A stretch of DNA of 64,000 nt. It comes from a bacterium (GTDB taxonomy: Bacteria > Patescibacteriota > Saccharimonadia > Saccharimonadales > UBA4665). Made by a program: the position numbers and the translations under genes. This document shows, piece after piece, positions 39,945-43,329 of this stretch (position 1 is its first letter; every line of letters begins with the position of its first letter). Under the pieces are notes generated by a model. That model did no database searches and was not told where the DNA came from. It worked only from the letters and a program-made list of their open reading frames with translations. Where the stretch lies: contig JAJZMC010000002.1 in the NCBI GenBank assembly GCA_021803105.1, positions 1-64,000 of the forward strand, read 5' to 3'.

Positions 39945-40577
39945 TTAGCTCAATAAAGTCTTAGGTAATAAATCTTCTATACTCGACTGAACTTCTTTAA
40001 TAGACTGCGTACCATCAATTATCGATAAATCGTATTCTTTCGCAATCCACAAATAACCTTCTCGAACTTTTTCAAAAAAATCTCTTCCTTTTTTTTCAAA
40101 ATTATCATTAGCATCTGTTCCTCTATGACCGATTCTAACTTCTGAAACTTCTACTGGTACATCTATAATAACTGCAAAATTAGGTAAAAATAATTTCCCT
40201 AAAGCCAATTTCATACGATTTGTAATATCTTCAATCGATAACCCTTCACCAAAACCTTGATATGCTATAGTTGAAAACCAATTACGATCACTAATAACGT
40301 GAGTGCCTTCTTCTAAAGCTGGCTCAATAACTTGCCGAACTAATTCTCGTCGACATATCGTAAATATATCTAAATTCGTTTCAGGACTTCTGGGTAAAGA
40401 ACCATTTTTAACTATTAATCTAAGCTCATCACCAATTAATGTTCCACCAGGTTCTGCTAGACCAATAACATTTTCATTATTTTCAATTAGAGTTTTCTGT
40501 AATAAATCTTTCTGGGTAGTTGTACCAGCACCGTCGGTACCTTCAATAACAATATATTGCCCCAATTTTTCACTCAT
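39945..40577 (-). CDS. tmk: Thymidylate kinase with altered P-loop
   Basis: 210 residues. Phosphorylates dTMP to dTDP. The fold and key segments fit: IEGTDGAGTTTQ near 11-22, SDRNWFSTIAYQGFGEG (the DR(Y/W) segment with thymidine-binding residues) near 95-111, and IIDVPVEVSEVRIGHRG near 138-154. The P-loop lysine of GxxGxGK(S/T) is replaced by Thr19. A lysine from elsewhere may take over. The frame is intact. It lies 253 bases beyond the 3' end of tmRNA, on the same strand. Confidence 0.88.
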   Translation of the reverse strand: MSEKLGQYIVIEGTDGAGTTTQKDLLQKTLIENNENVIGLAEPGGTLIGDELRLIVKNGSLPRSPETNLDIFTICRRELVRQVIEPALEEGTHVISDRNWFSTIAYQGFGEGLSIEDITNRMKLALGKLFLPNFAVIIDVPVEVSEVRIGHRGTDANDNFEKKGRDFFEKVREGYLWIAKEYDLSIIDGTQSIKEVQSSIEDLLPKTLLS

Positions 40578-40640: not shown

Positions 40641-40698
40641 ATAAATTAAATTTATTTTTACTAACATCTTATAATTCATTTAGCAAATAAAAAAACAT

Positions 40699-40782
40699 AA
40701 AAACGTTTTCTATCAAGATTATAAATAAAAACGTTTTCTATCAAGATTATAAATAAAAACGTTTTCTATCAAGATTACAAAT
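40699..40782. repeat. Three tandem 28-bp repeats, each with an AAAACGTTTT palindrome
   Basis: Units at 40699-40726, 40727-40754 and 40755-40782. The first two are identical and the third differs by one base (ATTATAAAT to ATTACAAAT). Each unit is AAAA-ACGTTTTC-TATCAAGATTA-type sequence with a perfect 10-bp palindrome. They lie in the 253-base gap between the tmRNA 3' end and tmk. There is no spacer diversity, so this is not a CRISPR array. Spaced palindromes suggest a protein-binding array. Confidence 0.8.
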
Positions 40783-40829
40783 CAAAACTTTTAATCAAAT
40801 ATATTTAAATTATAAAAACATAATATTTA

Positions 40830-41220
40830 TGGTGGAGCTGGTGGGTACTGCCCCCACGTCCGTCAGTTTATCTATGTTATTCTTCTACAGGTTTAGTCTA
40901 CTTATTAAATTCAATCATCAAACCTTAAATAGACAAAGTTTTGCTGATCTAGTCTCCAAATCTTAACAATTATATGGAAACAAATATAATTGAGCAATCA
41001 GATGATATAAAACACTATTATCTTATCTGATGTCAGATATAGCATTGCTATTTATAAATCTAAACAGCGATTGCGACTGGAGAACTCTGTGGAAACAAAG
41101 ATCTTGCCAAGTCAGCAATTGTAGTCTTACGAGCTGCAATTACTAAATTTTGCCTATACGCTGACAAGCGACCTGCTGATATAACTGATAAAGTCCAACG
41201 TCGAGCTTAAAATCAGCCCC
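40830..41220 (-). ncRNA. ssrA: Transfer-messenger RNA (tmRNA)
   Basis: 391 bases on the minus strand. The 5' end GGGGCTG and 3' end CAGCTCC plus ACCA form an alanine-type acceptor stem with the G3-U70 pair. The hallmark TCGACG follows the 5' strand. TAGTA, matching the resume-site signal, precedes a reading frame at 41137-41060 coding for about 25 residues that begins AARKTTIADLA and ends PVAIAV before TAG. The expected T-loop (TTCRANY) reads GGCAGTA within the stem GTGGG/CCCAC. tmRNA with SmpB rescues stalled ribosomes; smpB is not in this window. Confidence 0.92.
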
Positions 41221-41230
41221 ATCTGAATTT

Positions 41231-41239
41231 ATTATATCA
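41231..41239 (-). promoter_or_regulatory. Extended -10 promoter of tmRNA
   Basis: Minus strand TGATATAAT: a perfect TATAAT with the TGn extension, ending 10 bases before the mature tmRNA 5' end. It lies across the end of the ksgA gene, so tmRNA has its own promoter within the upstream gene boundary. Confidence 0.65.
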
Positions 41240-42031
41240 TATTTTCATTAAAAATAAATAGAGCTTATGCCAATTATCTAATGATAGATCTTGAGGTCTA
41301 ATATCTTGTCTTAGATTTAAACTTAAAAGAGCATTTAAAATATCTTCTCTGGAAAACCTAATACTCATGCTATTTATTATTTTTTTACGCTTTTGAATAA
41401 AAGCTAATGTCATAAATTTTATCAATTCTTGGTAATTAATATCACTAAAAATAGCTGTTTGATACGGTTTTAATACAACTATTTGTGAATCAACTTTTGG
41501 TGGTGGTACAAATAAATATGCTGGTAATATTTCTTTAGCACTTATCGTAAAGTTCAATTGTGTACTTAAAGATAATAAAGACATTTCTCCTGGTATAGCT
41601 ATTAATCTTTGTGCTACTTCTTTCTGTATCAATAAAACAGCAACTATTGGCTTATTCTTGCTATCAGCTAATTTTCTAATTAAAAAGCTAGTTAAATAAT
41701 ACGGAATGTTAGCAACCACTTTATAATCAGATTTAAAACTATCAAAATCAAACTGCCTCACATCAGTTAATATAACGGTTAAACTACCGTCTTTAATTTG
41801 ACTAGCAAATTTAATCTTTAGTTGATTAACAAGATTCTTATCAATTTCAAAAGCGGTAACTCTAACTCCGAAATCTAATAATTTTTTTGTTAACGTACCA
41901 CTACCTGGACCAATTTCAATAACAATATCATCTTTTGATAACTCAGCATACGAACAAATAGTATCTAAACTATTATTATCAGATAACCAATGTTGACCTA
42001 AAATTTTATTTGCATATGGTAATTTAGACAT
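41237..42031 (-). CDS. rsmA: 16S rRNA dimethyladenosine transferase (RsmA/KsgA)
   Basis: 264 residues from the ATG at 42031. The reading from 42064 would overlap the upstream gene and adds residues outside the family. Dimethylates two adjacent adenines near the 3' end of 16S rRNA. NKILGQHWLSD near 8-18 is the family start, SAM-binding motif IEIGPGSGTLTKKLL, catalytic NIPYY followed by LTS, and a C-terminal helical domain with MTLAFIQKRKKIINS. It starts 8 bases after the G5 gene ends. Confidence 0.94.
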   Translation of the reverse strand: MSKLPYANKILGQHWLSDNNSLDTICSYAELSKDDIVIEIGPGSGTLTKKLLDFGVRVTAFEIDKNLVNQLKIKFASQIKDGSLTVILTDVRQFDFDSFKSDYKVVANIPYYLTSFLIRKLADSKNKPIVAVLLIQKEVAQRLIAIPGEMSLLSLSTQLNFTISAKEILPAYLFVPPPKVDSQIVVLKPYQTAIFSDINYQELIKFMTLAFIQKRKKIINSMSIRFSREDILNALLSLNLRQDIRPQDLSLDNWHKLYLFLMKI

Positions 42032-42039
42032 ACTAATAT

Positions 42040-43329
42040 TTACCACCAATGATAATAATACCAATGATTATATGCATTAGCCCAACTACCGTAATGACTA
42101 TGAGCATATGCATTAGCCCAACGAAGCTGCGTTATTGGATTAGTTTCCCAGTCACTTCCATATGCCGACATATTAGATGCTGGCGTTGACTGACCAAGAC
42201 CATACCCATAGGAACCGTTAATTGAATGGATTGGTTCAAAACTTATAGGACAATAGCCATATTCGCCCTGCCATTTAGTTGGGCACCAACCTGATTCATT
42301 GCTGATGATATAATCAACATAGAAATAATTATTCGGTGAAATACCAGCTAAAGCCATATCTCCTTTAATACCACTAAGAGAAGTACCTTCTACTTCAATT
42401 TGTGTTACTGGTTGTACGGTTACTATATTCTGAAGAACAGTTTTGGCGGTTACTATTCCATTACTTAATTGTTCTTGATAAGTGATAACTTCTTGGCCAG
42501 CAGAGCCTTGTTGTCTAATAGCTCCCGTACCGTACGCAAGATTTGAATCATATATGACTTGCACAGGCATAGGAATTGTACTTGCTACTGATTGAATTTT
42601 TATGCCATGTCTAATAATAAAAACTTGAGAATTAGCTGTTATTGGACTATTTAAAGATGGCTCGATTTGATCAGAAGCTGATAAGTGAATGTTTTCTGCT
42701 TTGATTAATCCTGCTACTGTTTTTGCTTGAGTACGTAAAAATAATAAACTACCATATAAATTAAGATAAACTGGTGTAGCTGGTTTAATAATTAATTGTT
42801 GCCCAATAGCATAAGAACTTAAAAAATTACCAACAGGTTTAAGACTGATTTTATCAGCTGGATAAACTTTAATACCCTGTTGTTCAGCAATGGCCCGTGG
42901 TGTCAATGCTGCAGAATATGTATAAGAAATTGAGTTACCATCAATTATTTCAACAGGAACAGCTCGATAAATATTAATTCTAAAATCATCTTGATTAATA
43001 GCTGTACTTAATGACGGTTCAACAACATCTCCTTTATGTAAAATAATATGGAGTTTCTGTAATAATGCTCCCACTGTCGGTTCTTTACTTGGAACAATCT
43101 GAACAACATGATCATGAGTAATAATTACTATTTTATCGTTAGTAGGAGTAATAAGAGTAGTAGCAGAATTATGAAAAATAAAAAATAACCCAATAGTTAA
43201 ACTGATTACCAAAAATAATACGATTGCCGTAATAACAACCGGTCGAAAGAAAAAACGTTTAATCTTTGCCTTAGTAAATGTTCTTTTCTTTTTTTTCTTA
43301 AATTTATAACTAACACGCTTAAATTTCAT
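42040..43329 (-). CDS. YabE-like wall protein: ubiquitin-like repeats, G5 domain, lysozyme-like domain
   Basis: 429 residues. A basic N-terminus and one transmembrane helix (about 30-52), then three DUF348-type ubiquitin-like repeats (about 65-245), a G5 domain (about 265-325: ITYQEQLSNGIVTAKTVLQN), and a C-terminal lysozyme-like domain. In that domain IISNESGWCPTKWQGEYGYC near 340-359 offers the catalytic Glu, and GYGLGQSTPASNM follows. This matches the B. subtilis YabE and actinobacterial Rpf architecture, which cleave peptidoglycan and can promote growth from dormancy. Next to rsmA, as yabE is near ksgA in Bacillus. Confidence 0.88.
   Translation of the reverse strand: MKFKRVSYKFKKKKKRTFTKAKIKRFFFRPVVITAIVLFLVISLTIGLFFIFHNSATTLITPTNDKIVIITHDHVVQIVPSKEPTVGALLQKLHIILHKGDVVEPSLSTAINQDDFRINIYRAVPVEIIDGNSISYTYSAALTPRAIAEQQGIKVYPADKISLKPVGNFLSSYAIGQQLIIKPATPVYLNLYGSLLFLRTQAKTVAGLIKAENIHLSASDQIEPSLNSPITANSQVFIIRHGIKIQSVASTIPMPVQVIYDSNLAYGTGAIRQQGSAGQEVITYQEQLSNGIVTAKTVLQNIVTVQPVTQIEVEGTSLSGIKGDMALAGISPNNYFYVDYIISNESGWCPTKWQGEYGYCPISFEPIHSINGSYGYGLGQSTPASNMSAYGSDWETNPITQLRWANAYAHSHYGSWANAYNHWYYYHWW

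Follow-up and report, generated by a model that had tools for sequence, protein, structure and literature searches.

The elbow of tRNAs carries four near-universal signatures, namely G18, pseudouridine-55, U54 and A58, and long tmRNA tags occur in bacteria that lack ClpX, as in Mycoplasma, where they are read by Lon. For E. coli tmRNA, Barends et al. reportedly proposed in 2002 an interaction between G13 and U342, with both phylogenetic and mutational evidence. According to a passage of a review citing that work, interactions between D- and T-loop are needed for SmpB binding and for function (PMC3968760). Exceptions to the usual T-loop have been described in tmRNA: Caulobacter has G for U342 (position 55), and the mitochondrial tmRNA of Reclinomonas has GG for U341-U342 (positions 54-55) (PMC1168896). 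Within tRNAs, A54:A58 is found in the eukaryotic initiator tRNA and in some eukaryotic tRNA-Ala and is absent from bacterial tRNAs (PMC7566577); neither A18 nor G55 is mentioned in that paper. A tmRNA database published in 2025 holds 97,179 sequences with a commonest tag length of 10 residues, and the part of its text that is available contains neither 'D-loop' nor 'Patescibacter' (PMC11915505).

The locus described here is a genuine full-length tmRNA gene (ssrA) in the window, by which we mean the whole stretch of 64,000 nucleotides that was analysed (Table 1). The Rfam model RF00023 matches the minus strand from 41220 to 40830 over its full length (model positions 1-374) with 74.7 bits (E 3.5e-27), above the gathering score of 47, and this is the sole match above cut-off in the 810-kb assembly; of the 18 further matches below cut-off, the best four fall on tRNA genes, two for Ala and one each for Gly and Ser. 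The RNA has G3-U70 and CCA, a T-arm of five pairs with a 7-nt loop, a resume codon and an open tag frame with a stop, and the genome has a gene for SmpB. Its D-loop, AUUUUAAGC, is followed by UCGAC and there is no D stem. The canonical elbow (G18, U54, U55, A58) is absent: the window tmRNA has A18, G54, G55 and G58 instead. ARAGORN calls no tmRNA at 40830-41220. Judged from its sequence, the tmRNA is probably functional.

Table 1. Features of the tmRNA gene and its neighbours in the window
Feature	Position	Strand	Basis or remark
ssrA (tmRNA gene), 391 nt	40830..41220	(-)	RF00023 full-length match
Acceptor 5' strand GGGGCUG, G3 paired with U70	41214..41220	(-)	Sequence and covariance alignment
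D-loop AUUUUAAGCUCGAC; A18 (41207) G19 (41206) instead of the usual G18G19	41200..41213	(-)	
Tag frame, resume codon GCA, AARKTTIADLARSLFPQSSPVAIAV	41063..41137	(-)	Covariance-model alignment of resume region
UAG, tag stop codon	41060..41062	(-)	
T-arm GUGGG-GGCAGUA-CCCAC	40841..40857	(-)	Covariance alignment, T-arm table
T-loop GGCAGUA: G54 (40852), G55 (40851), C56, A57, G58 (40848), U59, A60	40846..40852	(-)	
Acceptor 3' strand CAGCUCC and encoded ACCA	40830..40840	(-)	Sequence and alignment
Dimethyladenosine transferase gene (PF00398)	41237-42064	(-)	Flanks ssrA
Thymidylate kinase gene (PF02223)	39945-40577	(-)	Flanks ssrA

The original prediction, made from the letters of the window, had read the locus as a tmRNA with an alanine-type G3-U70 acceptor, a GUGGG/CCCAC T-arm around the loop GGCAGUA and a tag of about 25 residues ending in AIAV. 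These readings are confirmed by the full-length RF00023 match, the acceptor strands GGGGCUG/CAGCUCC and the UCGAC after the D-loop, by a covariance alignment that puts the T-arm at the same place, and by the 25 codons that precede the UAG. A resume codon or T-arm elsewhere was considered and rejected: the alignment with the tmRNA model, a check that the prediction itself had proposed, places both as read, with ...UAAUUGCA aligned with the resume region of the model, so that the outcome named there as a refutation does not arise. Absent from the prediction was the change of the D-loop partner to A18; the T-loop change that it described is one half of a coupled change.

A promoter scan yielded 7 sites compared with 5.5 in shuffles, and the closest upstream site on the same strand ends at 41273, 53 bases from the gene. 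By eye, a TATAAT is visible at 41236-41231 on the minus strand, outside the count of the promoter scan. Just downstream of ssrA, a 28-bp tandem repeat (ATAAAAACGTTTTCTATCAAGATTATAA) is present in 3.5 copies (40697-40792).

We read 230 tmRNAs, 140 of them from searches of the family and the class and 90 loci from a search of the phylum; the set takes in the 73 full-length family matches listed and only part of the class and phylum matches listed. A 7-nt T-loop is present in 227 rows, the three outside being one that was not parsed (L230) and two with 6-nt loops (L122, L133). In the class set, 129 of the 140 tmRNAs have G55 when parsed at fixed positions; the remaining 11 consist of five with six-pair T-stems that shift the parse, two with 6-nt loops and four with UUC loops, these last four being second or foreign-looking tmRNA copies. 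GGCAGUA is the commonest T-loop of the class set (33/140), and a mutation local to the window gene was rejected on these grounds. The T-loop was thus rightly called non-canonical as far as its letters go, but it is no oddity: it is typical of the clade. There is no genome-wide loss of UUC loops either, because the tRNA-Ala (UGC) of the window genome keeps a normal UUC T-loop. A full-length tmRNA is listed for 73 of the 93 family genomes; for the other 20, some of them nearly complete (G004, G005, G075), none is listed and the gene may have been missed or may be absent.

Several unusual tmRNAs were seen among these relatives. A six-pair T-stem sits under GGCAGUA-type loops in five family tmRNAs (L016, L020, L026, L031, L101). 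Odd T-loops are found elsewhere in the order as well: the two 6-nt loops read CUCAUA (L122) and AUCAAA (L133), and two loops with A54 and U58 read AGCAUUA (L126) and AGAAUUA (L138). Second or foreign-looking tmRNAs occur in five genomes (L113, L142, L143, L036, L214): four have UUC loops, four lack an encoded CCA and three have 7-residue frames. They are possibly mobile elements or contamination; a comparison of L142 with phages gave a match limited to 31 bases at the 3' end. All five copies are G18:U55 and are included in the 227 rows; they were excluded from the tree used for positions 54 and 58 and from the tag statistics.

Across the 227 tmRNAs with a 7-nt T-loop, T-loop and D-loop have changed together, from G18:U55 to A18:G55 and, at 54:58, from U:A to G:G. 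The state of 18:55 is A:G in 148 and G:U in 65 rows, and the 14 others comprise five U:G, four U:U, two C:G, one C:U, one C:C and one G55 row without G19; among the U:U rows, inspection by eye gives GG for two (L216, L231), which are one base off the spacing rule. Neither A18:U55 nor G18:G55 occurs in any of the 227, while a simpler parsing rule gives three rows with GG and G55 that the spacing rule reads as AG. G19:C56 is mostly retained: position 56 is C in 139 of the 148 A18:G55 rows (U in 8, A in 1) and in 61 of the 65 G18:U55 rows (U in 4), and the constancy of position 19 is partly built in, as the parsing rule picks a G for it. At 54:58, the states are U:A (147), G:G (68), C:A (6), A:U (3) and three others.

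Letters at 19 and 56 also vary in two tRNAs. The tRNA-Gly(GCC) at 9-85 of the window (minus strand) has GU for GG in its D-loop and the T-loop UUAGAGU, which by sequence would give U19:A56 in place of G19:C56; by alignment, its letters are identical in 30 of 30 family loci examined (L428-L457). In the same genome, the tRNA-Ala(GGC) at L003:1501-1577 (minus strand) has GA in the D-loop and the T-loop UUUGAAU, which fits A19:U56.

Both 18:55 and 54:58 have switched repeatedly. On a tree built from the bodies of the class tmRNAs, from which the two loops had been removed (134 rows, of which 127 have both traits), position 54 changes 16 times and position 58 changes 17 times, and the two go the same way in all 6 of the 6 independent pairs with support (p 0.031). 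On a careful tree of SmpB with 82 rows, positions 18 and 55 change 11 times each and 5 of 5 supported pairs go the same way; the sign test gives p 0.0625, which is the floor for five pairs. A quicker SmpB tree (87 rows, of which 84 have both traits) has 16 and 15 changes at 18 and 55, respectively, and two supported pairs. In both SmpB trees, G261 and G255, where included, had position 18 set to G by hand (GG by eye), and the careful tree omits G252 and G355, which have long branches, together with all rows without A or G at position 18.

A18 accompanies G55 beyond this sample too. A wide scan of contigs for a U54-G55-C56-R57-A58 T-arm followed by the acceptor CATCTCC, a pattern that tests the D-loop only and gives no frequency, returned 89 loci, which belong to Patescibacteria, to Bacillota (Clostridia among them) and, in two cases, to Rickettsiales; the records are mostly metagenome assemblies, and at least 9 of the 89 contigs are apparently shared with the phylum sample, so that the scan is not wholly independent. 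Two loci were chance matches and for four no 5' end was found, leaving 83 scored loci: position 18 is A in 77, U in two and C in one, and three have no G19. All 29 scored tmRNAs with a Bacillota title have A18, and so do both Rickettsiales genes, which are permuted (two-piece).

We consider it likely that the window gene encodes a working tmRNA with a tRNA-like elbow held by alternative tertiary pairs, together with the scheme for rescue and tag reading given below. A18 would pair with G55, in a geometry that is likewise predicted, in place of the pair of G18 with pseudouridine-55; G54:G58 would replace U54:A58, the trans Watson-Crick/Hoogsteen pair that gives the T-loop its shape, and the exposed G19:C56 pair would be kept. 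Pseudouridine at 55 is impossible and so is, in the G54 forms, 5-methyluridine-54. The RNA would be charged with alanine through G3-U70, bind SmpB, be delivered by EF-Tu and take part in trans-translation, and the stalled protein would gain an alanine and 25 residues.

Linked letters could also arise by shared ancestry, from a single old change at each site and with no contact between the sites. Relatives do dominate the sample and the supported 18:55 pairs are as few as two on the quicker and five on the careful tree, but families f50 and f55 each contain both 18:55 states (one f55 row reads GG by eye), 54 and 58 move in one direction in every supported independent pair, and A18 with G55 is met again in tmRNAs with a Bacillota title and in the permuted ones of Rickettsiales, which makes this explanation very improbable. 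That the gene is decayed or mis-assembled, its odd loop a mutation or an error in a lineage whose tmRNA is failing, is hardly credible: recurrence of the same loop in 33 of the 140 class-set sequences, intact stems, CCA and tag frame and an intact SmpB all speak against it, even though the score is below that of many relatives (up to 102.4 bits in the family), 20 of the 93 family genomes have no full-length match listed and ARAGORN misses the window gene. A further possibility, in our view an unlikely one, is an elbow that does not have the usual T-loop fold and has a sheared G54-A60 pair and an antiparallel two-base kissing contact of D-loop G19-C20 with T-loop G55-C56. C20 indeed follows G19 in most G55 tmRNAs (141 have both C20 and G55) and A60 is present in 59 of 69 G54 loops; however, C20 is not tied to G55, as position 20 is A, U or G in 14 of the G55 rows and C in 32 of the U55 rows, and G54 is accompanied by G58 in 68 of the 69 loops, more closely than by A60.

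The elbow might, alternatively, have followed a change in SmpB, with a protein contact replacing the pair between the loops. In the cryo-EM structure of the E. coli complex, SmpB sits against the D-loop of tmRNA, packs on G19 (E. coli numbering) and inserts its Trp122 into a pocket made up of A15, U17 and A334 (passages of PMC8363625). By count, this G19 corresponds to the G in UUCGAC, and the window tmRNA retains the UCGAC stretch. The window genome has one SmpB match (G000:C3:52069-52488, PF01668, E 8.5e-40, over the Pfam cut-off), and this SmpB has several off-consensus residues in the stretch from 71 to 92 of the aligned frame; both the D-loop contact in the E. coli structure and this local divergence would favour a change driven by the protein. 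We compared SmpB of 39 U55 genomes and 21 G55 genomes outside the class and of 33 class genomes. Against such a change, no well-conserved SmpB residue tracks the 18:55 switch between the 39 U55 and the 21 G55 genomes outside the class: columns with a shifted consensus are variable ones, for example column 53, where A has a share of 0.46 in the U55 genomes and S one of 0.71 in those G55 genomes that lie outside the class; the window genome has A in this column. The original prediction had proposed to look for a matching change in SmpB; none that is clear was found, and we regard an SmpB-driven elbow as quite improbable.

The tag of the window tmRNA, with its 25 residues and its AIAV end, is not a short tag of the ClpXP type (about 10 residues, LAA, ClpX). 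It had been called unusually long, which is correct in comparison with the commonest length of 10 and does not hold within the family: the 72 called family tags have 20-33 residues (median 26) and a median net charge of +2. They end in A in 48 and in V in 21 cases, with AV in 2 of 72, and six congeners preserve the tag frame (e.g. ADRKTTIADLLSSFGNFLLPQTSPVAITV). Tags of the phylum outside the class are also long at the median (74 called; median 21, range 6-36); these values are rough, as are all statistics outside family f1, since the tag caller made no call for 23 of 225 tmRNAs and produced a few short outliers beyond the family.

ClpX over cut-off was found in none of 21 genomes (the window genome and 20 relatives), and the predicted effect of the tag on protease recognition is therefore plausible. 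In the phylum, 3 of 145 genomes have ClpX over cut-off, all of family f45, and these three have tags of 10-13 residues ending in AA (AETTPLAIAA, ADNTGLRALPLAA, ADNQSLRALPLAA); with one ClpX-bearing lineage, the tie between tag length and ClpX is no more than suggestive. Since no ClpX was found, the tag would have another reader, and selection for a short, LAA-ending tag may have been relaxed. The window genome encodes ClpP and FtsH as well as a protein of 834 aa that combines Clp_N with two AAA regions, lies in the neighbourhood of RadA and scores below the cut-offs of both ClpA and ClpB. This double-ATPase Clp protein together with ClpP, or else FtsH, is the probable reader of the tag. The only Lon_C match in the window genome is weak and is RadA.

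On a wider scale, bacteria may have a second, interchangeable elbow code for tmRNA, consisting of A18:G55 with G19:C56 and, in one order, also of G54:G58. It would give an unchanged L-form in the absence of pseudouridine-55 (and of 5-methyluridine-54 where position 54 is G), would have arisen many times by double change and would be dominant in one class of Patescibacteria (probably Saccharibacteria) and recurrent in Bacillota and Alphaproteobacteria; within the phylum, the short LAA tag would have become long and basic through loss of ClpX, with FtsH or another Clp ATPase as its reader. For this proposal as a whole, we see the case for and against as evenly balanced. A natural RNA family with repeated, co-varying swaps would provide ready-made compensatory mutants for the requirements of the elbow, and the finding points to a changed tag-reading protease in the phylum. 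It also affects the annotation of tmRNAs: ARAGORN misses the G54-G55 forms, detecting 0 of 68, compared with 51 of 81 U54-G55 and 52 of 67 U54-U55 tmRNAs.

A search of the full-text literature, with subscription journals mostly outside it, found no paper on the coupled change of 18 with 55 or of 54 with 58 in tmRNA, and none on G54:G58 or on such coupling in the phylum. The contact between 18 and 55 in tmRNA is probably already known: G13-U342 of E. coli tmRNA are the same two positions, and G54:G58 is not known to be part of that proposal. The A:G form of 18:55 may also have been seen before. The change from U55 to G has already been noted in Caulobacter and Reclinomonas (PMC1168896). The tmRNAs of these two consist of two chains, unlike the one-piece window tmRNA, and the TLD section of that account mentions neither a D-loop partner nor a change at 58. 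The A54:A58 tRNAs (PMC7566577) likewise have a purine-purine pair for T54:A58, but it is A:A and not G:G as in the window tmRNA. The long Mycoplasma tags are similar in that a long tag goes along with the absence of ClpX; the difference is that Lon reads them there, whereas the Lon_C match of the window genome is RadA. With the canonical one-piece tmRNA (RF00023, E. coli ssrA), the window tmRNA shares the G3-U70 acceptor, the CCA, a reduced D-loop before UCGAC, the T-arm of five pairs with a 7-nt loop, the resume codon with the tag frame and the SmpB gene. It differs from it by A18 for G18, G55 for U55, G54:G58 for U54:A58 and A60 for a pyrimidine, and by a tag of 25 residues ending in AIAV rather than about 10 residues ending in ALAA.
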